From NCBI GenBank assembly GCA_020439505.1, contig JAGQSO010000109.1:1-37543 (forward strand): a stretch of 37,543 nucleotides of DNA, given 5' to 3'. A model generated the notes under the pieces. That model saw only the letters and a list, made by a program, of their open reading frames with translations, was not told the origin of the DNA and made no database searches. Source of the DNA: Acidimicrobiales bacterium. GTDB taxonomy: Bacteria > Actinomycetota > Acidimicrobiia > Acidimicrobiales > Iamiaceae. Numbering within the stretch: the first letter of the stretch is position 1; each line of letters starts with the position of its first letter. Positions 2,851 through 36,468 of the stretch are shown here, piece after piece. The position numbers were made by a program, and so were the translations under genes.

Positions 2851-4154
2851 CCCGGCCGTCGCTGCGCCTCCGCTACCACCAGGGCACCACCGCGCACGTG
2901 TCGAGCATCTACCCGTTCTCGGTCCAAGGCTCCTTCGGTCACCGAGGCACCTACGTCGGCCTCGACCTTCTCGCCGGAGGCGGCGAGTTCTGCTGGGACC
3001 CCTTCGAGGCCTACGCCGCCGGACTCGTCACCAACCCCAACGGCTGGATCCTCGGCGAACCCGGCAACGGCAAGTCAGCACTCGTCAAGTGCCTCCTGTG
3101 GCGCCAAGCCGCCATCTACGGCACCGGCCCCGGTGGACGGTGGACCGCGATCGCCGACCCCAAAGGCGAGTACGCCACCCTCGCCGAACACCTCGGGCTC
3201 ACCGTCGTGAAGCTCAGCCCCGGCGGTACCGCCACCATCAACCCCCTCGCCCCCGGACCCGCCGCCGACCACGAACCCGCCGACAAGCAGATCCTCCGCC
3301 GCGCCGAGATGTGCACCGCGCTGGTCGGCACCGTGCTCGAACGCAGCCTCACCCAGCTCGAAGACGCCGTGGTGTTCGCCGCGGTCGACCAGCTCACCAC
3401 AGCGCCGCTCGACGAGCCCACGCTCACCGATGTCGCCCGGCTGGTCGCCAACCCGACCGAAGCGATGACCGAACGGCTCCGCAGCACCGACCGCGACCTC
3501 GCCGCGGACACGGCAACGGTCGCGTACGCCCTCGACAAGCTCCTCTCCCGATCGCTGCGCGGCATGTTCGACGGCACCTCCACCGTCCCGCTGCGATGGG
3601 ACGGACCCGGCGTCGTGCTCGACCTCTCCGCCGTGCCCTTGGACTCCGACGCGCTGCCGCTCGTCATGGTCGCCGCCGCAGGCTGGTTCCAACAGCTCAT
3701 GGCCTGCCCCGGCCCCCAGCGCGTCCAGATCCTCGACGAAGCCTGGGCGCTGCTCGGCAACCGCCACACCGCCGGCTACCTCCAGACGAGCTTCAAGCTC
3801 GGCCGCACCTACGGCGTCGCCAACCTCTGCATCACCCACCGCGCCTCTGACCTCGTCGCACAAGCCGACGACGGCACCGCGACCAGCAAGATCGCGGCCG
3901 GGCTCCTCGCGGACTCGGCCACCAAGATCATCCTCCGCCAGGCCCCCGACCAGCTCGACGCGGCGGTTGCACACTTCGGGCTCACCGGACCCGAAGCGTC
4001 CATCGTCGGCCAGCTCACCCGAGGCCGCGCCCTGTGGAAGCTCGGCGGCCGCACCGCGGTGGTCCAACACGTCCTCGGCCCTGGCGAACAGCCCATCGTC
4101 GACACCGACGCCCGCATGCACGGAACACCGACCGAGCGGACCGAGGCGGCATGA
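2847..4154 (+). CDS. VirB4-type conjugation ATPase
   Basis: This 435-residue P-loop ATPase would energise assembly of, or transfer through, the conjugation apparatus. Walker A is GEPGNGKSALVK at about residues 70-81 and Walker B is VQILDEAWALL at about residue 292. The following ITHRASDL segment and the GRALWKLGGR region match the VirB4/TraC-like HerA-FtsK branch. It is shorter than a usual VirB4 (about 600-800 residues) because the N-terminal domain appears to be on the upstream gene. ATG 2847 overlaps the upstream TGA by four bases (ATGA), a strong sign of coupled translation, and the next gene starts 3 bases after the stop. The ATPase call is firm; its exact place in the secretion complex is inferred from neighbours. 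Confidence 0.88.
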   Translation: MTRPSLRLRYHQGTTAHVSSIYPFSVQGSFGHRGTYVGLDLLAGGGEFCWDPFEAYAAGLVTNPNGWILGEPGNGKSALVKCLLWRQAAIYGTGPGGRWTAIADPKGEYATLAEHLGLTVVKLSPGGTATINPLAPGPAADHEPADKQILRRAEMCTALVGTVLERSLTQLEDAVVFAAVDQLTTAPLDEPTLTDVARLVANPTEAMTERLRSTDRDLAADTATVAYALDKLLSRSLRGMFDGTSTVPLRWDGPGVVLDLSAVPLDSDALPLVMVAAAGWFQQLMACPGPQRVQILDEAWALLGNRHTAGYLQTSFKLGRTYGVANLCITHRASDLVAQADDGTATSKIAAGLLADSATKIILRQAPDQLDAAVAHFGLTGPEASIVGQLTRGRALWKLGGRTAVVQHVLGPGEQPIVDTDARMHGTPTERTEAA

Positions 4155-5810: not shown

Positions 5811-5914
5811 GCCGACAGCCTACGCCTGCTCGACGACGTCTGGACGGAGCCGGAAGCGAACCGTGGCACCGGCTTGAACCGGCCCGCGAAGTTTTGGCTC
5901 GCCAAGGGGCCTAC

Positions 5915-7759
5915 ATGGGTATGGAACGCGAAGGCATTGGCGGCTTCGAGTTGCTCATCATCGTCGTCGCTGGCATCGGGCTGGCGCTGGTCGGCGCGGT
6001 GTGGGCGGGAGCTCGGTTGGCGCTGGCCGTGTCGGGAGGCGGCGGGCACCTCCCCTTCGCTGCCGCGGCAGATGCTGCGGTGCGGCTCCCGGCCAACCTG
6101 AGCACGCCCGCCGAGGCGTGGGCCGAGCCCTACTCCGAGGCGCTTCCGGGTGCGCCCCTCTACTGGCTCTGCACCGTCCTCGCCGCCTTCGCCGTCGGCG
6201 GCACGGTTGCGCTGGTCGTGCGGTGGTTGACCCGGTCGAAGGTGGGGACCGCCAAGCGCCGCCCGCTCGGTGTCGACGGGAGGACGCGGTTCGCGAAGCG
6301 GCGAGACCTCGACCCTCTGCTGGTGTCGGGTCCCACGCCAGGGCGACTGATCCTCGCTCGCTACGGCCGACGTCTGGTCGCCACCGAGTCCCCGCCACCT
6401 CGCGTCGAGGGCCGGGCAGATCGGGCGGCGCGTCGCTCGCGCCGAGGGGATCGCGGCGCGGTAGCGCTGGTCGGACCGTCGAGGTCCGGCAAGACCACCG
6501 CCGCGGTGGCGGGCATCCTCGAGTGGGACGGCCCGTGCGTGTTGTCCTCGGTCAAGGCCGACCTGCTGGGCACGACCCAGGGGTGGCGCTCGACCCTCGG
6601 TGACGTCCGCGTCTACGACCCGACGTCCTCGACGACACCGAAGGGCACCTCGGCCCTGTGGTCACCGTTGCAGCAGGCCGGAACCGTGGCGGGAGCGCAG
6701 CGGGCAGCGAGGGCGCTGTGCGACGCCGCACCACGAGGCGGGGTCGAGGGCGGCATGGACTTCTGGCTGGCCCAAGCCGAGATCCTGCTGTCAGGCCTCA
6801 TGTTCGTCGCCCACAACGCCCACCGAGACATGGACGCGGTCTGCGAGTGGGTGCTCACCCAGGACCGACCTGGCGAACTCGGCCCCGGCGATGTCCGCAC
6901 TGCGCTCGACTCGTTGAACCTCTCGAACAACGCAGCGGTCTCGCGTGGCGCGATCGAGGTCGCCAAGGGCCTGGTGTCGGTGTGGGAGATGGAGGAGCGG
7001 ACCCGCTCGTCCATCTACGCGACAGCACAGACGGTGATCTGGCCGTGGACCGATCCGGGCGTCGCCGCGTCCGCCCGGTCACCCAAGGGCAAGAAGAGCC
7101 GCGGCCAGTCCGTCGGGGTCGACCTGCCGTGGCTGTTGTCAGGAGCGAACACCGTCTACCTATGCTCGCCGATCGAGGACCAGCGACGGTTGGCCCCGGC
7201 GTTCGGCGGCCTTCTGAACGACCTGATCAACCAGGCGTACCGGCACGTCGCCGCGACCGGCAAGCCCCTCGACCCGCCGCTGCTCGTGGTGATCGACGAG
7301 GCCGGGAACACCCCGCTGCGCTCGTTGCCCGAGTACGCCTCGACCCTCGCCGGGCTCGGCGTGCTGCTGGTGACGATCTGGCAGTCGCTCGCGCAGCTCG
7401 AGGTCGCCTACGGCAAGGCGTCCGACACGATCCTCACCAACCACCTGACCAAGGTGTTCTACGCGGGCCTGTCTGACCCGGCGTCGATCCAGTACGTCGA
7501 TCGAGTGCTCGGCGAGGCCGAGGTCGACACCCGCTCGCACTCGGCTGCCGAGCGGCTCAACGGCGGCTCGGACCAGTTCTCGACCACCCGCGTGCCGCTG
7601 GCCCCGGCCCACGTGCTGCGCCAGATGCGTCCCGGTGACGCGCTCTTGGTGCACGGCACCCTGCCGCCGGCGCACGTCCGCACGAGGCCCTTCTACCGCA
7701 GCGCGCATCTGGCCAAGCGCGCCGCGACGGAGGTCGGCGACCAGGAGCAGGTGGCATGA
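5915..7759 (+). CDS. VirD4/TraG-type coupling protein (T4CP)
   Basis: This protein of about 614 residues would link the relaxosome to the transfer channel and pump DNA. Two N-terminal membrane helices (GFELLIIVVAGIGLALVGAV and a second near LYWLCTVLAAFAVGGTVALV) precede the motor domain. Walker A is GPSRSGKTTA at about residue 187 and Walker B is LLVVIDEAGN at about residue 455. The intervening FWLAQAEILLSGLMF and the later LLVTIWQSLAQLEVAYG are typical of VirD4/TraG proteins. I chose ATG 5915 because AAGGGG lies five bases upstream; the frame opens at TTG 5894, and ATG 5921 is also possible. The stop overlaps the next gene by four bases (ATGA at 7756). Confidence 0.9.
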   Translation: MGMEREGIGGFELLIIVVAGIGLALVGAVWAGARLALAVSGGGGHLPFAAAADAAVRLPANLSTPAEAWAEPYSEALPGAPLYWLCTVLAAFAVGGTVALVVRWLTRSKVGTAKRRPLGVDGRTRFAKRRDLDPLLVSGPTPGRLILARYGRRLVATESPPPRVEGRADRAARRSRRGDRGAVALVGPSRSGKTTAAVAGILEWDGPCVLSSVKADLLGTTQGWRSTLGDVRVYDPTSSTTPKGTSALWSPLQQAGTVAGAQRAARALCDAAPRGGVEGGMDFWLAQAEILLSGLMFVAHNAHRDMDAVCEWVLTQDRPGELGPGDVRTALDSLNLSNNAAVSRGAIEVAKGLVSVWEMEERTRSSIYATAQTVIWPWTDPGVAASARSPKGKKSRGQSVGVDLPWLLSGANTVYLCSPIEDQRRLAPAFGGLLNDLINQAYRHVAATGKPLDPPLLVVIDEAGNTPLRSLPEYASTLAGLGVLLVTIWQSLAQLEVAYGKASDTILTNHLTKVFYAGLSDPASIQYVDRVLGEAEVDTRSHSAAERLNGGSDQFSTTRVPLAPAHVLRQMRPGDALLVHGTLPPAHVRTRPFYRSAHLAKRAATEVGDQEQVA

Positions 7760-8079
7760 AGCCGTTCCTCCGGGCTACCGACCGCGGACGGCTCGCGCCG
7801 GTGGGATGGATCTCGGAGCCAGCAGGTACCTGGGCGGGACGCCAGGTCGAGGTCGTCTTCGATCCACGCCAACACCAGATCGTGATGGTCCGCAACGAAC
7901 CGGGCGACACGACCCGCGCCGTGCTGGCAGGCGAGGGGTTCCGTCGCCTGGCGGTCGACGGTCAGCAGGAGATGTGGGTGCGCAACCGCGCCGCCGTGGC
8001 CGCGCAGCAACCACCGGACCGCGCGAAGTCGATCGACGCGACGCCCAAGCCCGCCCAGATCCAGGGCCGTGGCCTCTGA
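7756..8079 (+). CDS. small conserved-looking hypothetical protein of the conjugation operon
   Basis: I do not recognise this 107-residue protein. It reads as a compact soluble domain (VGWISEPAGTWAGRQVEVVFDPRQH, IVMVRNEPGDTTRAVLAGEGF) followed by a short charged, Pro/Ala-rich tail. It starts at ATG 7756 within the coupling-protein stop (ATGA), so it is almost certainly translated with it. Its own TGA at 8077-8079 overlaps a further ATG in the pattern TGATG. It has no signal peptide or membrane segment. Its position directly after VirD4 suggests an accessory role in DNA transfer, but that is guilt by association only. Confidence 0.7.
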   Translation: MKPFLRATDRGRLAPVGWISEPAGTWAGRQVEVVFDPRQHQIVMVRNEPGDTTRAVLAGEGFRRLAVDGQQEMWVRNRAAVAAQQPPDRAKSIDATPKPAQIQGRGL

Positions 8080-8129
8080 TGCGCTCACCGGCGGTGCTCG
8101 ATGAGCGGGAGATGGCGGGGGTAGCGTAA
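8079..8129 (+). other. 16-codon mini-ORF bridging two genes by stop-start overlaps
   Basis: ATG 8079 overlaps the preceding stop as TGATG. The frame encodes 16 residues (MRSPAVLDEREMAGVA) and ends in TAA at 8127-8129, which itself overlaps the next ATG as TAATG. It could act as a translational relay that passes ribosomes from the small hypothetical gene to the long downstream frame, with the GGCGGGGG stretch inside it acting as the Shine-Dalgarno for 8129. It may equally be accidental; no product function is claimed. Confidence 0.35.
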
Positions 8130-11100
8130 TGGCCCGCGCTCGGAGCGCTCGCAGCCAACCCTCTGACCAGCTCTCGCTGTTCGACCTAGCGCTCCCTCCC
8201 GACGACGCCGAAGAGGCATCGACCCAGGAGGTGACCCATGAACCGTCACGGTCAGATGGCGCTCGACCACAGCCGACAGCACCGGCCGGACGCCTATTCA
8301 CAGATCCCGGACCCCGCCCAGTTCTTCAACGAGGCCGGGGAGGAGATCGCAGCGACGGTGACCCGGCTGCGCGACGAACTCCTCGGCCCGCCCAAACCCG
8401 GCGAGACGCCGGAGGACTACCGGCTCCGCAGCTACCAGGCGTTGGCGACGGCCGAGGAGCTGACGCTGGCGGACCACCCCCTGTTCCAGCCGGACCCGTC
8501 GGCGGAGACCGAGGACTGGAGCGACGACCCGGACCTGGCCCGCCGCTACCAGGATCTGGCCGAGATCAACCAGGCGATCAACACCCCGCTGTAGCCGACG
8601 AACCACCCGCATCCCCGGCGCGACCGGCACCGTTTCGGCCGACCGGCACGGACGATCTCGCCCCGTCGGGGCAAGGGGCGAAGCTGCGAGCGAACCTCGA
8701 CGCGCTGGCGGTCCTCAACCAGTGCCGAGACGAGGGCGGCAGGTGGGCGACCTCCGACGAGCAAGCGGTCCTCGCCCGCTGGTCAGGGTGGGGAGCGATC
8801 CCGCAGGTCTTCGACCCCGACGACGACCGCTACACCGACGAGCGCGCCGAGCTGCGGCGGTTGCTGCGCACCGAGACGGGCTGGGCACAGGCCCGGCGAA
8901 CCACCTTGAACGCCCACTACACGTCGGCCCCGGTCGTGCAGGCCATGTGGAGCGCCGCCCAACAACTCGGCGTCGACGGCGACGTCCGGGTCCTGGAGCC
9001 TGGGTGCGGGTCCGGGAACTTCATCGGCTTCGCTCCCGACGGTGTGCGACTGACCGGCGTCGAGCTGGACCAGACCACCGCCGAGATCGCCCAGCACCTC
9101 TACGGCGCCCGGGCCACCATCGAGGCCACCGGCTTCGAGGAGCTGCGCGTCCCCGACGGCGCCTTCGATCTGGTGATCGGCAACGTCCCGTTCGCCAAGG
9201 TCACTCCGCACGACCCGCGGCACAACCGCGGGCGGCACGCCCTGCACAACTACTTCCTCATCAAGTCGCTGCACCTGACCCGACCTGGCGGGCTCGTCGT
9301 CGCGCTCACCTCCCGCTACACCCTCGATGCTCGCAACCCGGCGGCCCGGCGGGAGATGGCGTCGCTGGCCGACCTCGTCGGCGCGGTCCGCCTGCCCGAA
9401 CGGGCCTTCGCCCGCTCCTCCGGCACCGACGTCGTCGTCGACATGGTGATCCTGCGCCGCCGCCCACCCGGAGCCGAACCCACCGGCCCCGCCTGGGAAC
9501 ACGTCGGGCCCGCCCCGATCACAGCGGCCGAGAACGCGCCGCCGTTGGAGGTCAACGGGTACTACCTCACCCACCCCGAACGCGTCCTCGGCGACCTCGC
9601 CGCCACACGCGGCATGTACCGAGACCACGAGCTGACCGTCGTGGCGAACGGAGACCTCGACCAACAACTGCCCGCCGCCCTCTCGTCCCTCGCCGCCGAA
9701 GCCACCGACACCGGCCTCACCTACATCGCGGCCACCCGCGACACCGGGGCGCCTCGACCGGAGCGGCGTGCGGCACGAGGCGACTTCTACCTCGAGCACG
9801 CCCAAGACGGCAGCTTCGTCGTCAACCAACGCGGCGACGTCGCGCAGCTTCAAGGCGGCACCCCCGTCCCCTACAAGCCGCGCGTCGCGAAGGACAAGAG
9901 CGAACTCGAACGGCTCGTCGGGCTCCGCGACGCTGCCCGCCGGGTGCTGGAGGTGCAGGTCGACGGCGGCAGCGACGAACGACTCGACGCCGCGCAAGGC
10001 GTCCTCGGTGACCTGTACCGCACGTACGTGCGCGTCTACGGACCGATCAACCGGTCCAGCGAGGCGCGCACCGGACGCCGCAACGCCGAGACCGGCGAGG
10101 AGATCATGCGCCGCGTTCGACCGCGCATGGGTGGCTTCCGCGAGGACCCCGACTGGCCCCTCGTCGCCGCCCTGGAGGTGTTCGACGAAGAGCGCCAAGA
10201 GGCTCGGCCCGCTGCGATCTTCCTCGAACGGGTCATCGACCCGCCCCACGAGCGCCACGGAGTCGACAGCCCCGACGAGGCCGTCGCGGTGTGCCTGGAC
10301 GAGAGCGGGACGGTCACCGTCGAGCGAGTCGCCGAACTCCTCGGCACCGACGCGACCCACGCACGCCGGCAACTCGGCGCACTCGTCTACGACGAGCCAG
10401 GCACGAACCGGCTCGTGCCCGCGTCGGAGTACCTGTCGGGCAACGTCCGAGCCAAGCTCGACGCCTGCCGCGCCGCCGAGGACCCTGATGGCCGCTACCG
10501 GCCCAACATCGCCGCGCTGGAACGGGTGCTGCCGCGTCAGCTCGAGCCGACCGAGATCACCGCCCGCCTCGGCGCACCGTGGATACCGAGCCGCGACATC
10601 GAACAGTTCTGCCGCGAGGTCCTCGACGCCAGCGTCGATGTCGAGCACCTCCCACAGCTCGGCAACTGGTCAGCACGACTGCGCGACGGCAGCCGCCGCA
10701 GCGTCGCGCTCTCCTCGGAATGGGGCACCGGCCGAGCCGACGCCGTCACCCTCCTCGATGCCGCGCTCAACCAGCGGCTCCACACCGTCACCGACGCCAC
10801 CGACGACGGCAAACGGATCCGCAACGACGCCGAGACCCTCGCCGCGCGCGACAAGCAAGAAGCCCTCACCTCCAGGTTCTCCACCTGGGTCTGGGAAGAA
10901 CCCGAGCGGGCCAGCCGCCTGGCTGGCCGCTACAACGAGCTGTTCTCCTCCGCCGTCCTCCCGAACCACGACGGCGACCACCTGACCCTCCCAGGCCTCG
11001 CCCGAACCTTCACCCCGCGACCTCACCAGCGCGCCGCGGTCGCACGCATCCTCACCGACGGCCGCGCACTCCTGGCCCACGCCGTGGGCGCGGGCAAGAC

Positions 11101-13648
11101 CGCCACGATGGTCATGGCTGCGATGGAGCTGCGCCGCCTCGGCTCCGCGTCGAAGCCGGCGGTGGTGGTGCCGAACCACATGCTCGACCAGTTCTCCCGC
11201 GAGTGGCTCCAGCTCTACCCGACCGCGCGGATCCTCGTCGCCGACCGGGACCGGCTGTCCAAGGCACGCCGCAAGGAGTTCGTGGCCCGTGCCGCGACCG
11301 GCGACTGGGACGGCATCGTCTTCACCCAATCAGGGTTCGCTCGCCTGCCCCTCGGCCGCGACCTCATGACCGACTACCTGGGCGAGGAGATCGCCACCGC
11401 CCGTATCGCGCTGGACGGATCGAAGGACGGCAAGGGGCTGTCGGTCAAGAAGCTCGAGCGGCGCATCGCCCAGATGGAAGAGATCTACAAGCGGCTCCTC
11501 TCCGAGCACACCAAGGACGACGGCGTCCGGTTCGAGGAGACGGGCATCGACTACCTCTTCGTCGACGAGGCCCACGCCTACAAGAACCGCCGCGTCGACT
11601 CCTCGATCGACGGCGTCGCGAACACCGGCTCTCAGCGCGCCCAGGACCTCGACTCCAAGCTGTGGGCGCTGCGCCGGATGCACGGCCCGCGCGTGGTCAC
11701 CTTCGCCACCGCGACCCCGGTCGCGAACTCGATGGCCGAGCTATGGGTCATGCAGAGCTACCTCCATCCTGACCTGCTCGCCAGCGTCGACCTCCGAGCC
11801 TTCGACGCGTGGGCCGCGAACTTCGGCCGCACCCACACCGCGTTGGAGCTCGCCCCCGACGGTGCCTCCTACCGGATGCAGACCCGGTTCGCCCGGTTCC
11901 AGAACGTCCCAGAGCTGCTCACCCTCTACCGGCAAGTCGCCGACGTTCGCACGAGCGAGGACCTTGACCTCCCCGTCCCGGCGCTCGCTGGCGGCCAGGC
12001 CGAGACCGTCGTCGTCGAACCCAGCGACGTCCTGATCGACTACGTCGCCGAGCTGGCTTCCCGTGCCGAAGCCATCCGCAACCGGGCCGTCGACCCGAGC
12101 GAGGACAACATGTTGAAGGTCACCGGCGACGGCCGCCGCGCCGCGCTCGACCTCCGTCTCGTCGGCGAGCGCACTCCGACCGAAGGCGGCAAGTTGACCG
12201 TCGCCGCCCAGCGGATCGCCGCGATCCACCACGCCACCCGCGACCATCGCTACACCGACGAGACCAACCAGCTCACTCTCCGCCCGGGCGCGCTCCAGCT
12301 CGTATTCTGCGACGTCTCCACTCCCGCAGCCGAGGGATGGAACGCCTACGACGAACTCCACGCCCTTCTCGTCCGCCGCGGTGTCGACCACGGCTCGATT
12401 CGCTACATGCAAGACGCCAAGACTGACCAGGCCAAGGCGAAGCTCTTCGCCGCCTGCCGCGACGGCACCGTCTCGGTCCTGATCGGATCAACCGAGACCA
12501 TGGGCGTCGGCACCAACGTCCAGACCCGCGCCATCGCCATGCACCACCTCGACGCGCCATGGCGACCCGCCGACATCGATCAACGAGACGGCCGAATCCT
12601 CCGGCAGGGCAACCAGAACCCCGAGGTCCGCGTGCTGCGCTACGTCACCGAGGGCAGCTTCGACACCTACATGTGGCAGACGCTAGAGCGGAAGGCCGCG
12701 TTCATCGCCCAGGTCACTCGCGGCGACCTGCCCGATCGCGATGTCGACGACATCGGCGACCAGGCCCTCTCCTTCGCTGAGGTCAAGGCGCTTGCCACCG
12801 GCGACCCTCTTGTGTTGGAGAAGGCCTCCGTGGATGCCGGTGTCGCAAGGCTCACCCGGCTCGAGCGAGCGCACCACGACGACCAACACCGACTCCGGCG
12901 GACCCACGACTCCGCCACCCGACGCGCCGACAACGCGGAGCATCGAGCCGGTGATCTCCAGACCGTGATCGGCCGGGTCACCGACACGAGGGGCGACCGC
13001 TTCGCCATGACCATCGACGGCCGAACCCACACCAAACGCGTTGACGCCGGCGAACACCTCCAGAACATCCTCCGACAGCGCCTCGACCAGACCGCCCCCG
13101 AGACCAGCGGACCAACCGCCGAGATCGGGAGCCTTGGGGGCCTCGCCGTCACTGCTCAGGCGATCACCACCATCGAGGACGAAGTCCGCGTCGCCATCCC
13201 CGACGCCCATATCGAAGTCAGCTTTCTGAGCAACGACTTCAACCGCAGTGACCCCGCAAACCTCATCACCCGCCTCGAACGCCACCTCCACCGACTACCC
13301 GACACCATCGCCGAGCTGAGCAGCGAGGCGTCCGACGCCCGCGCCGAGGCTCAGCGTGCCGAGACCCGGATCGGCGCACCGTGGGACCGCGCTGCTGAGC
13401 TGGTCGGTCTGCGACATCGTCAGAAGGAGATCGAGGAGCAACTTGCGGCCACGACCGAGACTGCCCAAGACGAGCAGCCCGCGTCCCCGAATGGGCGTCG
13501 TCCCATGGCACCTTCGCCGATCACATCAGTCCCCTCGACTCCTCCGGGCCGAACGGTCGAAGACATCACAGCGGCCGAGCGCATGACCGCACGCCTCGAC
13601 GCGATCCAGCAGCGAGCCGCCATGGGCCGCGATGGAGTCGGCCTGTGA
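8129..13648 (+). CDS. DarB-like N6-adenine methyltransferase / SF2 helicase fusion
   Basis: As drawn this is a 1839-residue protein. Residues about 170-520 hold an adenine methyltransferase: the SAM motif is LEPGCGSGNF (about residue 288) and the catalytic motif is IGNVPFAKV (about 352), an NVPF variant of NPPF/Y. The middle region (for example EYLSGNVRAKLDA) leads to an SF2 helicase with Walker A HAVGAGKTATM (about 987), Walker B FVDEAHAYKN (about 1145), GSTETMGVGTNVQ (about 1453) and RDGRILRQGNQ (about 1486). A long, probably coiled-coil tail follows. Phage P1 DarB and plasmid relatives have this architecture and protect entering DNA from restriction. The start is uncertain. Only ATG 8129 and GTG 8231 are plausible in this frame, and both lie upstream of or at a nested gene (8238-8594). 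No ATG, GTG or TTG then occurs in frame until about 8859, inside the methyltransferase domain. Confidence 0.85.
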   Translation: MARARSARSQPSDQLSLFDLALPPDDAEEASTQEVTHEPSRSDGARPQPTAPAGRLFTDPGPRPVLQRGRGGDRSDGDPAARRTPRPAQTRRDAGGLPAPQLPGVGDGRGADAGGPPPVPAGPVGGDRGLERRPGPGPPLPGSGRDQPGDQHPAVADEPPASPARPAPFRPTGTDDLAPSGQGAKLRANLDALAVLNQCRDEGGRWATSDEQAVLARWSGWGAIPQVFDPDDDRYTDERAELRRLLRTETGWAQARRTTLNAHYTSAPVVQAMWSAAQQLGVDGDVRVLEPGCGSGNFIGFAPDGVRLTGVELDQTTAEIAQHLYGARATIEATGFEELRVPDGAFDLVIGNVPFAKVTPHDPRHNRGRHALHNYFLIKSLHLTRPGGLVVALTSRYTLDARNPAARREMASLADLVGAVRLPERAFARSSGTDVVVDMVILRRRPPGAEPTGPAWEHVGPAPITAAENAPPLEVNGYYLTHPERVLGDLAATRGMYRDHELTVVANGDLDQQLPAALSSLAAEATDTGLTYIAATRDTGAPRPERRAARGDFYLEHAQDGSFVVNQRGDVAQLQGGTPVPYKPRVAKDKSELERLVGLRDAARRVLEVQVDGGSDERLDAAQGVLGDLYRTYVRVYGPINRSSEARTGRRNAETGEEIMRRVRPRMGGFREDPDWPLVAALEVFDEERQEARPAAIFLERVIDPPHERHGVDSPDEAVAVCLDESGTVTVERVAELLGTDATHARRQLGALVYDEPGTNRLVPASEYLSGNVRAKLDACRAAEDPDGRYRPNIAALERVLPRQLEPTEITARLGAPWIPSRDIEQFCREVLDASVDVEHLPQLGNWSARLRDGSRRSVALSSEWGTGRADAVTLLDAALNQRLHTVTDATDDGKRIRNDAETLAARDKQEALTSRFSTWVWEEPERASRLAGRYNELFSSAVLPNHDGDHLTLPGLARTFTPRPHQRAAVARILTDGRALLAHAVGAGKTATMVMAAMELRRLGSASKPAVVVPNHMLDQFSREWLQLYPTARILVADRDRLSKARRKEFVARAATGDWDGIVFTQSGFARLPLGRDLMTDYLGEEIATARIALDGSKDGKGLSVKKLERRIAQMEEIYKRLLSEHTKDDGVRFEETGIDYLFVDEAHAYKNRRVDSSIDGVANTGSQRAQDLDSKLWALRRMHGPRVVTFATATPVANSMAELWVMQSYLHPDLLASVDLRAFDAWAANFGRTHTALELAPDGASYRMQTRFARFQNVPELLTLYRQVADVRTSEDLDLPVPALAGGQAETVVVEPSDVLIDYVAELASRAEAIRNRAVDPSEDNMLKVTGDGRRAALDLRLVGERTPTEGGKLTVAAQRIAAIHHATRDHRYTDETNQLTLRPGALQLVFCDVSTPAAEGWNAYDELHALLVRRGVDHGSIRYMQDAKTDQAKAKLFAACRDGTVSVLIGSTETMGVGTNVQTRAIAMHHLDAPWRPADIDQRDGRILRQGNQNPEVRVLRYVTEGSFDTYMWQTLERKAAFIAQVTRGDLPDRDVDDIGDQALSFAEVKALATGDPLVLEKASVDAGVARLTRLERAHHDDQHRLRRTHDSATRRADNAEHRAGDLQTVIGRVTDTRGDRFAMTIDGRTHTKRVDAGEHLQNILRQRLDQTAPETSGPTAEIGSLGGLAVTAQAITTIEDEVRVAIPDAHIEVSFLSNDFNRSDPANLITRLERHLHRLPDTIAELSSEASDARAEAQRAETRIGAPWDRAAELVGLRHRQKEIEEQLAATTETAQDEQPASPNGRRPMAPSPITSVPSTPPGRTVEDITAAERMTARLDAIQQRAAMGRDGVGL
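8226..8234 (+). promoter_or_regulatory. near-perfect Shine-Dalgarno AGGAGGTGA
   Basis: AGGAGGTGA lies immediately upstream of ATG 8238 and is fully complementary to the 16S anti-SD. It is the strongest ribosome-binding site I noticed in the conjugation block and decides that the nested gene at 8238 is real. Confidence 0.8.
8238..8594 (+). CDS. 118-residue hypothetical protein nested in the methyltransferase-helicase frame
   Basis: I do not recognise this small acidic protein. Its middle is helical (EEIAATVTRLRDELLGPPKP, then ETPEDYRLRSYQALATAEEL) and the end is Asp/Glu-rich (LARRYQDLAEINQAINTPL). It has no membrane segment or signal. The evidence that it is coding is the perfect AGGAGGTGA upstream of ATG 8238 and a strongly GC3-biased codon pattern in this frame. 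The overlapping +2 frame, by contrast, reads as a low-complexity Pro/Gly/Arg string. The gene ends in TAG at 8592-8594. It lies wholly within the open frame that leads into the methyltransferase, so either the two overlap in different frames or the large protein uses an unusual start. A role as an accessory protein of the large enzyme is only a guess. Confidence 0.75.
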   Translation: MNRHGQMALDHSRQHRPDAYSQIPDPAQFFNEAGEEIAATVTRLRDELLGPPKPGETPEDYRLRSYQALATAEELTLADHPLFQPDPSAETEDWSDDPDLARRYQDLAEINQAINTPL

Positions 13649-22621: not shown

Positions 22622-22650
22622 TTGGATTATCGCAACGCCCTCCGTAGAGT
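22622..22650 (+). promoter_or_regulatory. candidate sigma-70-type promoter of the surface-protein gene
   Basis: TTGGAT (22622-22627) and TAGAGT (22645-22650) are separated by 17 bases. A start of transcription near 22657 would give a leader of about 28 bases with GGAAGGA as ribosome-binding site before ATG 22685. The match is partial. Confidence 0.4.
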
Positions 22651-22684
22651 CAACCGGTCGTTCAGGACTCAAGGAAGGACTCCG

Positions 22685-25600
22685 ATGACCGCCGTGCAGG
22701 TCACCCCTCTTAATCGCTCGCGCCCGACGGTTCGAACGTTCGTCGCCGCCATCGCCGCCACGCTCCTCGTCGCGTCGGTGCTCGTGTTCGTCGCAGCGAA
22801 GCCGGCCGCGGCGGCTCCGCCTATGCCGACGGTGGGGTTGTCGCTCGATGACCAGCCGTTCATCGGCGCGCAGGTCGACATGGAGCTGACCTTCTCGAAC
22901 CCGACACCCGCGGACACCGGCTACGGGCCGTTCACCGACCTCTTCCTGCCGACGAACGGAGCCGACGGGACCTCCGGCGGCGGCCCCCGAGACGGCATCT
23001 CGTTCCTCGCCGCCACCTATCTGGGGGCACCCGCCATCTCGAGCGTCCTCACGCTCGCCTGCGACGGCAGCGACGTGCACCCGCTCACCGGTCAGGCCGT
23101 GACGTGCCCGCCGGGCTTCACCGCCGGCGACACGATGACCACGATCACCCTGCCGTTCGGGTCCTTCACCCCGACCCAGCCCGCCGCCACAGTCCTCGTG
23201 ACGGCGCAGCTGTCGAACTTCGCGGACCTCGGCGTCGCTCTGGGCGTCGCAGCTCGGGCTGGGTTCCGCTACGGCGCCGACCCGATCGACAACCCGCTCG
23301 TCGACCCGCCGATCGTGTCGCCGACGCTCACCACGAGCAGCGTCACTCCCACTCTCATCACCATCGAGAAGGAGTCGAACGCTCCCGAGTCCGAGACGGC
23401 GACCGGCGAGAACTTCCCTCGCAGCTGGACGGTGTCGGTCGAGATCGCGCCTGGCCAGACCGTCACCGACCTTCGGGTCACGGACTCGCTGCCCGACGAG
23501 ATCGCCTACGGCGGTGTGTCCGGGATCAGCCCCGCCGGATCGGTGACAGATGAACCTGCGGGCGCAGGCCCCTGGAGCGGTGAGTCAGTCACGGTGTCGT
23601 ACCCGACGGTGACGAGCCACGCCGCGTACGACCTCGCCTTCCACGTTCCGGAGCTCGATGCGTCGAGCGCCCCGGTGATCGATCCGACCAGCGGTGCGCC
23701 GACGCCGGTCGACAACGACGCTGCCGCCGTCGGCAACTGGACGCCGCTCGACCCACGGGATCCCGCGGGCGTCGACAACGCCGTCGCCGATCCGCCGGGA
23801 CCGCTCGACACCGTCACCGCACGGTCCCTCGCGACCCAGAAGGACGTCGTCGTGTCCACCGACACCGGCCGGGGCGGACCGACACCGGGCGACACCCTGA
23901 CGTGGACGATCCAGGTGCAGATCTCCGACTACTTCGACGTCGCGAACCTCGCGCTGGCCGATGTGGCCTCCGATGGCCAGCACCTCGACACCACCTTCGA
24001 TCCGTCGATCACGTTCAACACGCCCGACGGGTCGGGTAGCGCGCTCCTCGGCGGGTACTTCACGTCGGACACCAACGGTCCCACATCCCCCGGCGGCTGC
24101 AACGCCGGCGACCCGGGCGCGATCACCATCGGCGTGGACCTCGCCGGCTTCCTCAACAGCACGGCTCCGTCATCCGGGGGCGTGTGGTTCGGCGACGCCG
24201 CGGGCGGCACGACGGCGACGATCACCTACCGGACCGTCATCGACTCGGCCTACCGGTGCGACTTCGGTGGCTCTGCGGTCAACACCCGCGACGACATCTC
24301 GAACAGGGTGGCAGCGAGCGGCCAGATCCCCGGTGGGGGTGCCGTGTCGGACTCCTCCTCGGAGGAGGTGACGATCGTCGCCCCCGCAGCCACCAAGGAG
24401 GTGTACGCGATCAACGGGGACACAGCCGACACCGGACCCGACATCGCGTCCGGCGACCTGGTGACCTACCGGATCAGGGCTTCTGCCCCACTGACGAACA
24501 TCCTCGACCTGTCCATCACCGACTACCTCCCGCTGCCGACGTTCGAGATCCCCTCGACGCCGTCGCCGTTCACGAACCTGACGGGTTCCGGACCCGTCCC
24601 GCCCGGGCCGTTCTCGCCGACCGCGTGGACGGTCGCGCTCGGCCCGTCCGACACGTTCAGCTCGACGACGGGTCTGACGCCGACGGTCACATCCGATGTC
24701 GCCGGCAACTCGGTCACTCTGACCTATCCCGACTTCCAGTCGGCTCCCGGCAGCTCGTCCGAAGCGCTCGACCTGCTCATCACCGTCGAGGCGAACGACC
24801 AACCCTTCGCTGACGGCCTCCTGCTCACCAACCAGGCGCGGATGATGACGGCGAACTCGCCGTCGGTCATCGCGAGCACGGACGCGATCGTGCAGGTGAC
24901 GCTCACCGAGCCGGAGCTGACCATCACCAAAGGTGTCGTCACCTCCGATGGACCGTCGGCGTCGTACAGCCCGGCGAGCACCGGACCGGCCGGTGTGAGC
25001 TGGTCCGCGCCCGGGACCCCCGGCGTGCGCTTCAGCGGCGCAGCTCTCACCTCCGCAACGCTCGCGACCTCTCCGATCGCCTCCGACGTCAGCCGCGTCG
25101 ACGCCGGCGACACCGTCACCTTCGCCCTGGTGGTCGACAACGTGGGCTCCGGCATCCGCGGGGCGTTCGACGTCGCCGTCGGCGACGTCGTTCCCGCCGG
25201 GCTCGTCGAGCCGTCCGGCGGCTGGAACATCACCGTCAGCGACGGGAACGGCACGCCGCTGGCGCACACCGGGACGGACCCGTCGAGCATCGCCCTGATC
25301 GACCCCGCGGTGGACCAGGGTGCGCTCGCGCCGTACAGCCCGAACGCTGCGACCAACGTCGCCGTCATCACCTTCGACGCGACGCTCGCGTCGAGCGTCG
25401 AGATGAACCAGCTCATGAGCAACGTCGCCGAGGTCACGAACTACTCCGGCTCGGAGGGCGGCCCGAACTTCGTGGTTCAACCCGTCGAGGACACCGCGAC
25501 GGTCCGCGCGGCGATCCCGTCGATCACCAAGACGGTGACCGCGACCGGAGCGGGCGTCCCGCCGAGCGCGCCGCCGAACCTGGAGGTGCCGATCGGGTCG

Positions 25601-28600
25601 GTCGCCACCTACCGGGTCGTCGTCACGGTCCCCGAGGGCGTCACCCCGAACTTCGAGCTGCGCGACACCCTCGACGCCGGCCTGGCATTCGTCAGCTTCG
25701 ACTCGATCGCCGCCTCACCGGCGCTGTCGACCAGCTACCCCGGCGGGTTCTCCGCAGCGCTGGCGGCCACGAACGTCACCGGCTCCGGGACGGTCGCCAC
25801 CGTCCCCCTGTCGACGATCACGAACTCCGACACCGACAACTCGACGCCCGAGACGCTCACCCTCGACTACACCGTCGTGCTGCTGAACAGCACCGGGAAC
25901 ACCACGGGAGCGTCCCGCAACAACTCCGTGATCGCAAGGGCGGGCGGATCGAACCTGGGCACAGCTGTGAGCGCGCCCGACCTCCGGGTGAACGAACCCT
26001 CGCTGAGCGTGTCGAAGTCCGCGACCCCGACGACGGCCGACGCAGGCGACACGATCGACTACACCATCACCCTCGACGCGAGCTCGGCCACCCGCACCTC
26101 GACGGCGCACGACGTGACGCTGACCGACACGCTCCCCGACGGCGTCACCTACGTCCCCGGCTCGTTCGCGTTCGTCTCCGGCGCAGTCCCCTCCTCGGTC
26201 GACCCGGTCACCCAGACGGCGACCTGGACGACCCTCGCCCCGGGGGCGACCGCGACGTTCACCCTGTCCGCCGTCGTCGACGACGACGCCACGTCGTTCG
26301 GCGCGGCCGTGACGAACACCGCCCGTGCCACGTACTCGAGCCTTCCCGGGCCGCAGGGCAGCTCGCTCAGCCCCTACAACTCGCTGGGTGTGCAACGAAC
26401 GGGTTCCACCTCCGACATCGGCGGCTCGGCGAACACCTACAACCGGACCGGGCAGGCGTCGGTGACCGTCAACGCGTCGGACATCGACAAGTCGCTGAGC
26501 TCGACCTCCGCTCCTCACACGAGCTCCAACGACGTGACGATCGGTGAGACCGCCACGTTCACGCTCGACGTGACGCTTCCCGAAGGCGACCTCGGGACCG
26601 TGACCGTCACCGATCTCCTCCCGGCCGGGCTCGTCTACCTTCCGGGATCGGCGAGCCTCGACGCGACCGGCTTCGCCGGGACGTGGAGCGGGTCCCCGTC
26701 GCTGCCCGCCGCACAGATGTCGGGCAACAACGTGAACTTCGTGTTCGAGGACATGGTGGTGGCGTCGGGCCCCGGCAGCACCGACAACACGCTCCACGTG
26801 ACCTTGACCGCACGGGTCGCCGACGTGGCCGGCAACACCGCCGGGACGACCCTGACGAATACCGCACGGGTGACCGTGGGCGGTTCGCAGTTCAACTCGA
26901 ACGGGGTTCCGCTCGACGTCGTCGTCCCCGCCCTGACGGTCCTCAAGTCGTTCACACCCGGATCCGCCGCGGCGAACGACACCGTGTCGGTCGCCCTGAC
27001 GGTCACCAACAGCGGGACGTCGACGGCCTTCGACACAGTGGTCACCGACCTCGTCGACGGTGACGTCTTCACCGACGTCATCCCGGTCGCACCCGCCGGC
27101 TGGACGGCGACCGCAGTGCCCCAGGGCGGCGACACCCTCGTGACGTTCACCGCGGATCCGCACAACGGGATCGCACCGTCGGGGTCCCAGGCCCTGACCT
27201 TCACGGCGAAGCTCGTGGCGGACGCACCGGCACCGTCGACGCAGCCGAACACCGCGAACAGCTCGGCCAGCACCCTCGACGGCACCGACTCCGGCGAGCG
27301 AACGGTCACGGGCTCGGGCTCGGACACGTTGGACGTGACCGGTGTGGACATCGCCGTCGAGAAGACCGCGGACGTCACGACCGCTGATGCGGGCGACACG
27401 ATCACCTACACGATCACCGTCCGGAACCTGGGCGGCCGTGACGCAGACGGCGTCGTGCTCACCGACACGCTCGGCGACCACATCGCATCGTTCAGCGCGT
27501 CGGGCTCCTACACCACGGCAGGATCGACGATGACATGGGACCCCTTCCCACTCGCAGCCGGGGCATCCACGACCCGCACCGTCACCGCGACGGTGGTGAA
27601 CCCGTTGCCGGTCGGCGCCACGCTGACGACCAACAACGCCGAGGCGGCCGACGACGGGACCCACGGATCGGACCTCGACCCGTCCGACAACTCCGACGAC
27701 GCATCGGTCTCGCTCGGCTCGGTCGTGGACCTCGCGACCACGAAGACCGGACCGGCCGACGCTGCCGCGGGTGCCACCATCACCTACCAGGTGAACGTCG
27801 AGAACCTCGGTGACCGCAACGCCGCCGACGCGACGGTGACCGACACGCTCGGCGAGGACCTGACGTTCGTCTCGGCGACCGGCGGCGGCACCTACGACGC
27901 GGGCACGAGGACGATCACCTGGAGCGGCGTCGACCTGACCGGGGCGGCCGGATCGACGCCCAGCGTCGACTTCACCGTCACGGCGACGGTGTCGAACCCC
28001 ATGCCCGCGGGTCATCTCACCGTCGTCAACGACGCGTCGGTCTCCCATCCCGACGACGTCAACCCCCTCAACGACGACGACACGGTGACGACGAGCATCG
28101 ACGCCGAGGTGGACCTGGTCATCACCAAGGACGATCATCGGACGACGGTGGTACCCGGTGACGCCGCCACCTACGACGTCTCGGTCACCAACGTCGGCAC
28201 TCGAGGAGCCTCCGGCGTCACGGTCACCGACGCACTCGACCCGAACCTCGAGTTCGTCTCCGCGACCGGCGCCGCGACCTACGACCCTGGCACCCACACG
28301 GTGTCGTGGACGCTCGGCACCGTCGAGGTCGGCGACGTCGTCGACCTGTCGGTGTCGGTGACGGTGTCGGATCCGCTGGCTCCGCTCTCGACGACGTCGA
28401 TCACCAACACGGTCACCGTCGACGACGACGGATCGAACGGGCCGGAGCACAACCCGGCGGACAACACTGCGTCGGACACCGACACCACCGGCGCCGACCT
28501 CACGGTCACCAAGGACCTGGGGTCACCGCAGCTCGTCCCCGGGGCGGCGGCGACCTACACGATCACGGTCTCGAACGCCGGTCCGATGACCGTCGCTGAC

Positions 28601-29410
28601 ATCTCGGTCAACGACACGATGCCGTCGGATCTGACCGTGACGTCCCTGACCGTCGACCGCGGGACCATCGACGACGCGACGTGGCTGTGGAGCGACGTGA
28701 ACCTCGCTGCCGGCCAGACGGCGACGCTCACCGTCGTCGTCGACGTCAGCCTCGACGCGACCGGTGACCGCACGAACACCGTCACGGTCACCGGCGTCGA
28801 CGTCGGAGACCCGAATCCCGGCGACAACACCGCTGCGACGACCGATCCGATCGTGCCGACCGCAGATCTGGGCCTCACGAAGTCGCTCGATGGCCATCTG
28901 GTGCGCGGTCAGACCGCGACGTGGCGCCTGGAGGTCACCAACAACGGTCCGTCCCGCGCGACAGATGTCGTCGTGACCGACACGCTGCCGCTGGGCCTCG
29001 CTCTCGTGAGCGCGGTCGGCGACGACGGCGCCGTCTGGAGCTGCACCAGCAGCGATGCTCGCACCGTCAGCTGCCGGCTCGACCGGACGATGGAGCCCGC
29101 TGACACGGCAACGCTCCTGGTCGGCACCACCGTCGCCCCGGATGCGCCCGCGGGCACGATCACCAACACGGCATCGGTGTCAGCCGCCGAGACAGAGGTG
29201 ACCACCGCGAACAACGCGGCCGTCTCGGCCGGCGTGCTCGAGGCGCTGCCGGCTCCGGCGACGCCGAGCCGGGAGTCCTCCGGTGACGCGACCAGTGCAC
29301 CACCGAGCCTCGCCTACACGGGGTCGAACCCTCAACGACTGGTGCTCGTCGGCATCGGCGGCGTGATGATCGGATTCCTGCTGCTCCTGCTCCGTCGCCG
29401 GCGACGCTGA
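22685..29410 (+). CDS. giant DUF11-repeat cell-surface protein with LAYTG sortase signal
   Basis: This 2241-residue secreted protein starts at ATG 22685 after GGAAGGA. A signal peptide (VRTFVAAIAATLLVASVLVF, cleavage near AKPAAAAPP) leads to about 13 immunoglobulin-like DUF11 or isopeptide-type repeats. Each opens with a pattern like LTVTKD or ITKTV, continues with GDTITYTITV-N-G, and carries VTDTLP or a variant. Repeat openings fall at about residues 224, 381, 568, 744, 946, 1106, 1266, 1417, 1555, 1682, 1811, 1938 and 2061. The last five are evenly spaced at about 125 residues, while earlier ones are longer and more divergent. The C-terminus has LAYTG (about 2209), a membrane helix and six arginines: a cell-wall sorting signal of the LAXTG type associated with class E sortases. 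It probably acts as an adhesin or stalk. No sortase gene is in the window. Confidence 0.92.
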   Translation: MTAVQVTPLNRSRPTVRTFVAAIAATLLVASVLVFVAAKPAAAAPPMPTVGLSLDDQPFIGAQVDMELTFSNPTPADTGYGPFTDLFLPTNGADGTSGGGPRDGISFLAATYLGAPAISSVLTLACDGSDVHPLTGQAVTCPPGFTAGDTMTTITLPFGSFTPTQPAATVLVTAQLSNFADLGVALGVAARAGFRYGADPIDNPLVDPPIVSPTLTTSSVTPTLITIEKESNAPESETATGENFPRSWTVSVEIAPGQTVTDLRVTDSLPDEIAYGGVSGISPAGSVTDEPAGAGPWSGESVTVSYPTVTSHAAYDLAFHVPELDASSAPVIDPTSGAPTPVDNDAAAVGNWTPLDPRDPAGVDNAVADPPGPLDTVTARSLATQKDVVVSTDTGRGGPTPGDTLTWTIQVQISDYFDVANLALADVASDGQHLDTTFDPSITFNTPDGSGSALLGGYFTSDTNGPTSPGGCNAGDPGAITIGVDLAGFLNSTAPSSGGVWFGDAAGGTTATITYRTVIDSAYRCDFGGSAVNTRDDISNRVAASGQIPGGGAVSDSSSEEVTIVAPAATKEVYAINGDTADTGPDIASGDLVTYRIRASAPLTNILDLSITDYLPLPTFEIPSTPSPFTNLTGSGPVPPGPFSPTAWTVALGPSDTFSSTTGLTPTVTSDVAGNSVTLTYPDFQSAPGSSSEALDLLITVEANDQPFADGLLLTNQARMMTANSPSVIASTDAIVQVTLTEPELTITKGVVTSDGPSASYSPASTGPAGVSWSAPGTPGVRFSGAALTSATLATSPIASDVSRVDAGDTVTFALVVDNVGSGIRGAFDVAVGDVVPAGLVEPSGGWNITVSDGNGTPLAHTGTDPSSIALIDPAVDQGALAPYSPNAATNVAVITFDATLASSVEMNQLMSNVAEVTNYSGSEGGPNFVVQPVEDTATVRAAIPSITKTVTATGAGVPPSAPPNLEVPIGSVATYRVVVTVPEGVTPNFELRDTLDAGLAFVSFDSIAASPALSTSYPGGFSAALAATNVTGSGTVATVPLSTITNSDTDNSTPETLTLDYTVVLLNSTGNTTGASRNNSVIARAGGSNLGTAVSAPDLRVNEPSLSVSKSATPTTADAGDTIDYTITLDASSATRTSTAHDVTLTDTLPDGVTYVPGSFAFVSGAVPSSVDPVTQTATWTTLAPGATATFTLSAVVDDDATSFGAAVTNTARATYSSLPGPQGSSLSPYNSLGVQRTGSTSDIGGSANTYNRTGQASVTVNASDIDKSLSSTSAPHTSSNDVTIGETATFTLDVTLPEGDLGTVTVTDLLPAGLVYLPGSASLDATGFAGTWSGSPSLPAAQMSGNNVNFVFEDMVVASGPGSTDNTLHVTLTARVADVAGNTAGTTLTNTARVTVGGSQFNSNGVPLDVVVPALTVLKSFTPGSAAANDTVSVALTVTNSGTSTAFDTVVTDLVDGDVFTDVIPVAPAGWTATAVPQGGDTLVTFTADPHNGIAPSGSQALTFTAKLVADAPAPSTQPNTANSSASTLDGTDSGERTVTGSGSDTLDVTGVDIAVEKTADVTTADAGDTITYTITVRNLGGRDADGVVLTDTLGDHIASFSASGSYTTAGSTMTWDPFPLAAGASTTRTVTATVVNPLPVGATLTTNNAEAADDGTHGSDLDPSDNSDDASVSLGSVVDLATTKTGPADAAAGATITYQVNVENLGDRNAADATVTDTLGEDLTFVSATGGGTYDAGTRTITWSGVDLTGAAGSTPSVDFTVTATVSNPMPAGHLTVVNDASVSHPDDVNPLNDDDTVTTSIDAEVDLVITKDDHRTTVVPGDAATYDVSVTNVGTRGASGVTVTDALDPNLEFVSATGAATYDPGTHTVSWTLGTVEVGDVVDLSVSVTVSDPLAPLSTTSITNTVTVDDDGSNGPEHNPADNTASDTDTTGADLTVTKDLGSPQLVPGAAATYTITVSNAGPMTVADISVNDTMPSDLTVTSLTVDRGTIDDATWLWSDVNLAAGQTATLTVVVDVSLDATGDRTNTVTVTGVDVGDPNPGDNTAATTDPIVPTADLGLTKSLDGHLVRGQTATWRLEVTNNGPSRATDVVVTDTLPLGLALVSAVGDDGAVWSCTSSDARTVSCRLDRTMEPADTATLLVGTTVAPDAPAGTITNTASVSAAETEVTTANNAAVSAGVLEALPAPATPSRESSGDATSAPPSLAYTGSNPQRLVLVGIGGVMIGFLLLLLRRRRR

Positions 29411-35250: not shown

Positions 35251-36468
35251 TCAGGCGGCCTTCCTCCGGTTGTTCCCACGACGTTCCACCGAGGTCTTCC
35301 CGGCCCGCCGGGTGGCCTTCTTCTTGGTCGACGGGCGCGGCTCGGCGAGCCGTTCGGCGGTGCGGGCCGCGTCGGCCTGCATGCCGGGCAGGACGTGCTG
35401 GTAGGTCTCGAGCGTGTGGGCGATGTGGGCGTGGCCTAGCCGTTCGCTGACGACTTTCACCGGGACACCTTCCTTGATGAGCAGTGTGCCGTGTGTGTGG
35501 CGCAGGTCATGGAACCGGATCGGCGGAACTTGGGCGTTGTGCACGATCCGTCGGAACGCTTGGTAGAGCGCGTGGGGGTGGACTGGCTCGCCGTGGCCGT
35601 CGCTAAACATCCAGTCGTCGGCCAGGTCGATGCCGACTGCGGCGAACTCTGCGGCCTGGTAGGCCCGCCATCCTTCGAGCACGGCGATGGTTGTCTCGTC
35701 GAGTTCGATGGTCCGGCGGGCGGTCTTGGTCTTGCCGCGGGTCTGGTGGACCTCGTAGCCGACGGCGACGAGCCCTCGGTTGAGGTGCAGCCGCTTCTTG
35801 GTGACGTCGACGTCGGACCACTTCAGACCGAGGACCTCGTTTCGACGCATTCCGGTCATAGCGGTGAGCCAGTAGATCGGGAAGAAGCGGTGCCCGGCGG
35901 CGGTGCGCAGCAGTTGACGGAGCTGCTCTTCGGTCAAGGCCTTGCCTTCGGTCCTCTGGAGGGACCGTTGCTTGGGGGCACGGGCCACGAGCGCCACGTT
36001 GCGGGTCACCAGGCCTCGTCGGTGCGCGTCGGTGAGCGAGCCACGGATGATGAGGTGGATCTCGTACACCGTCTTCGGGGCGAGCCCACGGCCCGTCTCT
36101 GGATGCAGGAGCATCTCGTAGAGTGCTTCGATCTGCTGGTACCGCAGTCTACGGATTCTGGTGCGTCCGAGCACCGGAAGGATGTGCAGCTGCACGTTGC
36201 GCTTGTAGCCCCGGTAGGTGCTCGTCGCGAGGTGAAGCTCCTTGGCGGGTAGCCACTGGCTGGTCAGATAGGCGCCGAAGGTCAACGATCGCACTGCGTC
36301 GGTGCGCTTGGTCTCCTCCGCGGCGAGCTTCTTGGCGAGACGTTCGGCTTCGGCCCGGTCAGTGCCGGCGGGATGCCAGCTACGGCGTTCCTTGCCGGTC
36401 ACCGGATCAAGACCCTGGTAGATAACCGCGTAGAAGCGACCACGGCGCTGTGCCACATATCCATCCAT
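35251..36468 (-). CDS. tyrosine recombinase / site-specific integrase
   Basis: This 405-residue phage- or ICE-type integrase has an N-terminal AP2-like arm-binding region (GYVAQRRGRFYAVIYQGLDP), a SAM-like core-binding domain (FGAYLTSQWLPAKELHLATS) and the catalytic domain. Catalytic residues are R208 (TGMRRNE), probably K248 (GKTKTA), H320 and R323 (HDLRHTHG), H346 (LGHAH) and nucleophile Y356 (LETYQHV). All are intact. The tail is rich in Lys/Arg (TKKKATRRAGKTSVERRG). ATG 36468 follows AAGGAGGAAC. The gene reads toward the tRNA-Met-like sequence and its stop lies 54 bases from the encoded CCA, the usual layout of an element integrated into a tRNA 3' end. No excisionase gene is visible on its upstream side. 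Confidence 0.95.
   Translation of the reverse strand: MDGYVAQRRGRFYAVIYQGLDPVTGKERRSWHPAGTDRAEAERLAKKLAAEETKRTDAVRSLTFGAYLTSQWLPAKELHLATSTYRGYKRNVQLHILPVLGRTRIRRLRYQQIEALYEMLLHPETGRGLAPKTVYEIHLIIRGSLTDAHRRGLVTRNVALVARAPKQRSLQRTEGKALTEEQLRQLLRTAAGHRFFPIYWLTAMTGMRRNEVLGLKWSDVDVTKKRLHLNRGLVAVGYEVHQTRGKTKTARRTIELDETTIAVLEGWRAYQAAEFAAVGIDLADDWMFSDGHGEPVHPHALYQAFRRIVHNAQVPPIRFHDLRHTHGTLLIKEGVPVKVVSERLGHAHIAHTLETYQHVLPGMQADAARTAERLAEPRPSTKKKATRRAGKTSVERRGNNRRKAA

Follow-up and report, generated by a model that had tools for sequence, protein, structure and literature searches.

The window, by which we mean the whole 37,543-nucleotide stretch of contig JAGQSO010000109.1 analysed here, encodes a giant methyltransferase-helicase whose reading frame entirely encloses a second open reading frame on the same strand. 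Both frames were described in an earlier note made from this DNA alone, and their coordinates stand. The features on which our argument turns are:

5894-7759, forward strand: type IV coupling protein (TraG/VirD4-like), which marks the element as conjugative
7756-8079, forward strand: 107-residue gene of no family; a gene of similar size lies in the same place in an Iamia plasmid
8117-8122, forward strand: GGGGGT, 6 nt 5' of ATG 8129, likely serving the giant CDS as its ribosome-binding site
8129-13648, forward strand: giant methyltransferase-helicase CDS (polyvalent, DarB-like), 1839 residues from ATG 8129, assigned from its open frame, Pfam matches and a leader that is in frame in relatives
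8168-8182, forward strand: QLSLF motif in the leader (beta-clamp-binding-like), residues 14-18, conserved in Acidimicrobiia relatives
8226-8234, forward strand: AGGAGGTGA, ribosome-binding site of the nested gene, 3 bases 5' of ATG 8238
8238-8594, forward strand: nested tnpV-like gene, 118 residues, in the +1 phase relative to the giant CDS, assigned from amino-acid constraint and TnpV homology
8240-8590, forward strand: doubly coding stretch, whose giant frame encodes a Gly/Pro/Arg-rich linker, as judged from composition and from the lack of stops in 44 nested loci
8651-9520, forward strand: N-terminal part of the enzyme, conserved and containing the methyltransferase domain, which served as the query in searches for relatives
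11009-12610, forward strand: SF2 helicase module of the giant enzyme, from Pfam matches

Pfam models match the giant protein at residues 288-362 (methyltransferase) and 961-1494 (ResIII, SNF2 and Helicase_C), placing the methyltransferase N-terminal to the SF2/SNF2-type helicase as in DarB-like proteins; the scan listed no LPD36 domain. Polyvalent methyltransferase-SF2 helicase proteins of the DarB type are known from phages and conjugative elements (Iyer et al. 2017, PMC5512222), and the window's enzyme likewise joins an adenine-methyltransferase-like domain and an SNF2-type helicase in one giant protein. It also shares their carriage on conjugative elements: a tyrosine integrase gene (35251-36468, minus strand), together with genes for the coupling protein, a VirB4-like ATPase and a Toprim protein, suggests an integrated conjugative element. 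Elsewhere in the window, a 2,262-residue open reading frame with DUF11 and CARDB repeats (22622-29410) likely encodes a giant surface protein.

The earlier note recognized ATG 8129 and GTG 8231 as the only plausible starts of the giant frame and saw no further ATG, GTG or TTG between 8234 and about 8859. Our scan for these codons agrees: the next is TTG 8861, which lies 210 nt into the conserved enzyme domain. Because GTG 8231 falls within the ribosome-binding site of the nested gene, ATG 8129 is the sole credible giant start. Close relatives keep GGGGGTAGCGT[A/G] 5' of the leader start and AGGAGG 5' of the nested start. The first codon position of the nested frame coincides with the second position of giant-frame codons, and the giant-frame linker is 42% glycine plus proline with 9% order-promoting residues. 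Just 3' of the giant start, most Acidimicrobiia relatives preserve CGGAGCGCTCGC (palindrome GAGCGCTC; 8141-8152) as a nucleotide sequence, which may be an operator site or only reflect RSAR codons.

The nested product can be placed by profile comparison in the TnpV family, as a TnpV-like homologue. A profile of 16 nested relatives matched nine Bacillota-type TnpV proteins, several of them annotated as TnpV, with 97.7% probability (E 2e-12), and several plasmid members bear the name TnpV in public annotation. The Pfam TnpV model (PF14198) matched four of the 16 nested relatives (best E 6.5e-5) but not the window's nested protein itself, so our claim is one of a TnpV-like protein homologous to TnpV and not of a Pfam hit. 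Homology here rests on the profile comparison, because a PF14198 search of the window's genome returned no match, as did the controls. Searches with the nested protein gave one weak match in PHROG, none among NCBIfam models and none, by sequence, among solved structures; neither Pfam nor NCBIfam detected an HNH domain in it. The protein is predicted to be all-helical, with no strands (pLDDT 83), and a fold search gave no clear match. TnpV has been described as an accessory protein of Tn4451-type elements, encoded by a free-standing gene and postulated by homology to be Xis-like (PMC3158075); in S. suis ICEs it has also been described among the cargo of elements that inserted into snf2 genes (PMC9815147). 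The window's product shares with this family sequence homology, small size and a mobile-element setting; in contrast to the free-standing gene described, it sits nested in a polyvalent gene.

The same arrangement recurs across the Actinomycetota. With the enzyme and the nested protein as queries, we collected relatives from Acidimicrobiia out to distant Actinomycetota, and tblastn recovers leader, nested frame and enzyme in them, with leader and enzyme in one frame. A TnpV-like open reading frame fills the slot in all 20 actinobacterial loci selected by enzyme, comprising the ten strongest enzyme matches among 396 Actinomycetota genomes and ten plasmid loci; the TnpV profile score of the slot frame in one of these, from Gordonia (L074), is only weak. 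The earlier note had proposed checking whether the start and the nested gene are conserved in homologues, and leader, slot and phase are indeed retained. The phase is +1 across nested loci with one exception, a plasmid of Iamia sp. SCSIO 61187 (L066, 4566-4856), where a one-base indel in a C tract shifts the enzyme into the tnpV frame and fuses the two. This indel is absent from the sister chromosomal copy, whose methyltransferase carries a frameshift of its own. Frameshifts inside the methyltransferase occur in two loci; these and the C-tract indel may be assembly errors or decay. A further locus (L062) carries a second TnpV-like open reading frame (2955-3203) upstream of the nested one.

On the Bacillota side, we drew on plasmid, gut-contig and viral collections, a small and opportunistic sample. 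TnpV genes found by sequence alone split into nested and free-standing classes. About a dozen Bacillota loci carry a TnpV-like open reading frame in the same slot and phase, and in the nested class the enzyme frame runs for ~1,500 residues or more, stop-free across tnpV, in hosts that include Monoglobus (38% GC), Virgibacillus (32% GC), Cohnella, Selenomonas, Subdoligranulum and gut contigs. The region upstream of the overlap is larger here, at ~250-330 residues. A methyltransferase domain was found in all five long nested examples run against Pfam; a sixth, truncated, gave a MutS_I-type match and nothing else. Listeria pLIS40 also belongs to the nested class, its match to TnpV being weaker, and viral contigs searched with an Arthrobacter-type query yielded nothing. 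Free-standing tnpV genes, found in Pusillibacter, Vescimonas, tet cassettes and others, have 3-6 stops in the corresponding frame, and serve as a natural control. One further tnpV of the nested type (L104, 3705-3971) has a single enzyme-frame stop that leaves a 315-residue open reading frame, possibly a nested case in decay.

For the window alone, the openness of the giant frame is unremarkable at its GC content, since a synonymous shuffle yields zero stops with P = 0.28. Comparison across loci tells a different story. Among 16 non-redundant relatives the enzyme frame contains no stops, against 15.8 +/- 3.1 expected from 2,000 synonymous shuffles with a minimum of 6, whereas the third frame contains 61 against 51 expected. 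The enzyme frame is likewise free of stops across tnpV in 31 nested Actinomycetota loci (31.8 expected) and in 13 nested loci of Bacillota and Coriobacteriia (18.5 expected), so that all 44 nested loci together show none where synonymous shuffles predict about 50; because these loci are related and not independent, multiplied probabilities overstate the case and are indicative only. Third-frame stops are near expectation throughout (121 against 108.5 and 137 against 131.5 in these two sets, respectively), and the enzyme frame stays open even in Bacillota of 32-56% GC, with as many as 15 stops in the third frame. In eight loci with free-standing tnpV, the corresponding frame contains 29 stops against 40.4 expected.

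Both frames are conserved in constant phase, synonymous change is suppressed, and there is no alternative start. In the window's comparison with relative L049, the identity of synonymous codons is 0.87 in tnpV and 0.71 in the enzyme; in a Coriobacteriia/gut-contig pair (L063-L091) it is 0.63 and 0.48. Over a set of 17 pairs that does not include the L063-L091 pair, it ranges over 0.65-0.91 in tnpV against 0.55-0.84 in the enzyme, with tnpV higher in every pair, so the lowered synonymous divergence that the earlier note had suggested looking for over 8238-8594 is present. Reverse simulations place TnpV-frame identity far above what the enzyme frame alone dictates (z 8-11), whereas the amino acids of the enzyme frame are only weakly conserved over the overlap (z -1.3 to 2.6, with the number of synonymous changes fixed and stops barred). 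The evidence for the enzyme frame is thus mainly its openness and the slowed synonymous change, and the difference between the two signals shows that constraint falls on TnpV, with the enzyme frame as a permissive linker. Composition fits this reading, in that order-promoting residues make up 11% of the overlap linker, 29% of the downstream protein and 21% of the same frame of free-standing tnpV.

We propose that positions 8238-8594 are coded twice and that both frames are translated, a reading to which we give a probability of roughly 0.88. Initiation at ATG 8129 would produce the full enzyme, with a short QLSLF leader, a linker read through tnpV and then the methyltransferase-helicase, while separate initiation at ATG 8238, from its own strong ribosome site, would produce the 118-residue helical protein. 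The TnpV frame would carry the folded product; the enzyme frame would be kept as a tether for the N-terminal motif, in a linker whose sequence matters little beyond being open and flexible. QLSLF, by its agreement with QL[SD]LF, is what we take to be a beta-clamp-binding-like motif, and the leader may therefore bind the sliding clamp. Motifs of this kind flank the overlap in 23 of the 44 loci, with 25 occurrences against the 0.43 that their frequency elsewhere in these proteins would predict, for a pattern picked after seeing examples. Attachment of this motif to the enzyme, or of the larger N-terminal region in Bacillota, would explain selection for openness.

The earlier note had offered overprinting, a non-standard start or a frameshift, and the comparative evidence selects the first of these, since the leader and enzyme frame is open across tnpV. 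Were the enzyme instead to begin downstream of tnpV, around 8600, at a codon that is non-standard or has been overlooked, the open frame across tnpV would simply follow from high GC. At 70% GC an open second frame is common, as the shuffles of the window alone illustrate, and pipelines place enzyme starts downstream of tnpV (2561 in L072, 2795 in L073, 2543 in L081 and 4070 in L110, records in which the conserved region starts at 2501 or 4001). GTG codons also stand near the end of the slot in a few distant plasmids (L076, L078 at 2414 and L081 at 2438), and pipelines either adopt codons of this sort or shorten the enzyme. Yet none of 19 close and intermediate relatives has an ATG, GTG or TTG between the tnpV stop and the enzyme domain, so the normal starts near 8600 that the note had named as telling against its reading are absent there; moreover, a GC by-product sits poorly with openness in AT-richer Bacillota, with the stops that free-standing tnpV do carry, and with a QLSLF leader conserved in frame. 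We consider a late start improbable, and annotated N-termini of these giant enzymes appear often to be wrong, shortened to points within the methyltransferase domain. Programmed -1 frameshifting close to the 3' end of tnpV, giving a TnpV-enzyme fusion, is very improbable: the indel in the Iamia plasmid makes exactly such a fusion in DNA, but frameshifting would not need the leader frame to be open through all of tnpV, as it is in every nested locus, and the 3' ends of tnpV differ in length and sequence, with no common slippery site seen. Openness of the leader and enzyme frame in all nested loci, combined with the lack of a start after tnpV in the 19 relatives, makes both of these mechanisms unlikely.

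Two other readings concern the nested segment itself. It might be a selfish out-of-frame insertion, recent and tolerated, like the ShiLan HNH element of phage methylases (PMC11855218), where by the same logic an insert codes in one frame and leaves the frame of the host methylase open. ShiLan is, however, a homing endonuclease insert, whereas the nested TnpV has no HNH match in Pfam or NCBIfam and its slot is filled in every enzyme-selected actinobacterial locus and not sporadically, which leaves this idea hardly credible. Least credible of all is that the nested frame is spurious and the giant protein the sole real product; pipelines usually discard nested frames, but this one is conserved beyond what the enzyme frame dictates, keeps its ribosome site and is homologous to free-standing, annotated TnpV genes.

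Under the double-coding reading, the arrangement likely originated by read-through fusion: the flanking frames would have been joined through a pre-existing tnpV by stop loss, and the product then kept in conjugative elements of at least two phyla. We favor this order of events because TnpV is folded and conserved while the other frame is a low-complexity linker. In a tree of 56 TnpV proteins (midpoint root, long branches), free-standing copies fall within the Bacillota side, among nested ones; five changes between the nested and free states are most parsimonious, and at least two are forced by well supported branches. With the root uncertain, the simplest reading is that free-standing tnpV genes may have escaped from the nest. 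TnpV may also act with or on the enzyme that surrounds it.

Among bacteria, long genes overprinted on the same strand are regarded as rare. Since two phyla share this pair in a single phase, and free copies serve as controls, it offers a model for how overprinting starts, is maintained and is lost. The nesting would also explain odd Gly/Pro-rich linkers in giant conjugative-element proteins, and connects the TnpV family, whose function is unproven, with the putative anti-restriction enzyme that encloses it. The identity of the nested protein and its spread across phyla go beyond what a single sequence could show. In Bacillus subtilis, comS is likewise a small same-strand gene out of frame within a giant enzyme gene, srfA, and is cited for one species (PMC12350097), whereas the nesting of tnpV holds a single phase in different phyla. 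For DarB-type proteins, the main text of the Iyer et al. survey (PMC5512222) names neither TnpV nor an overlapping gene; we account for part of the linker of the window's giant as tnpV read in a second frame. Our literature search, whose coverage excluded most subscription journals, found no described overlap of TnpV or polyvalent proteins.

On a larger scale, tnpV nesting may be an ancient, phase-locked overprint that was retained in or spread across Actinomycetota and Bacillota, with free tnpV genes as escapees and the linker slot as a general site of overprinting, a scenario that we regard as an even bet. The suggestion of a general site arises because in Pseudomonadota plasmids this slot is occupied, in the same phase, by another small gene. 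In the P. putida plasmid p420352-strA (L110, 3666-3971), this is a 101-residue open reading frame in the +1 phase of a methyltransferase-helicase, for which no homology to TnpV was detected; its relatives, down to about 55% identity, are found on 62 plasmids, mostly of Pseudomonadota.
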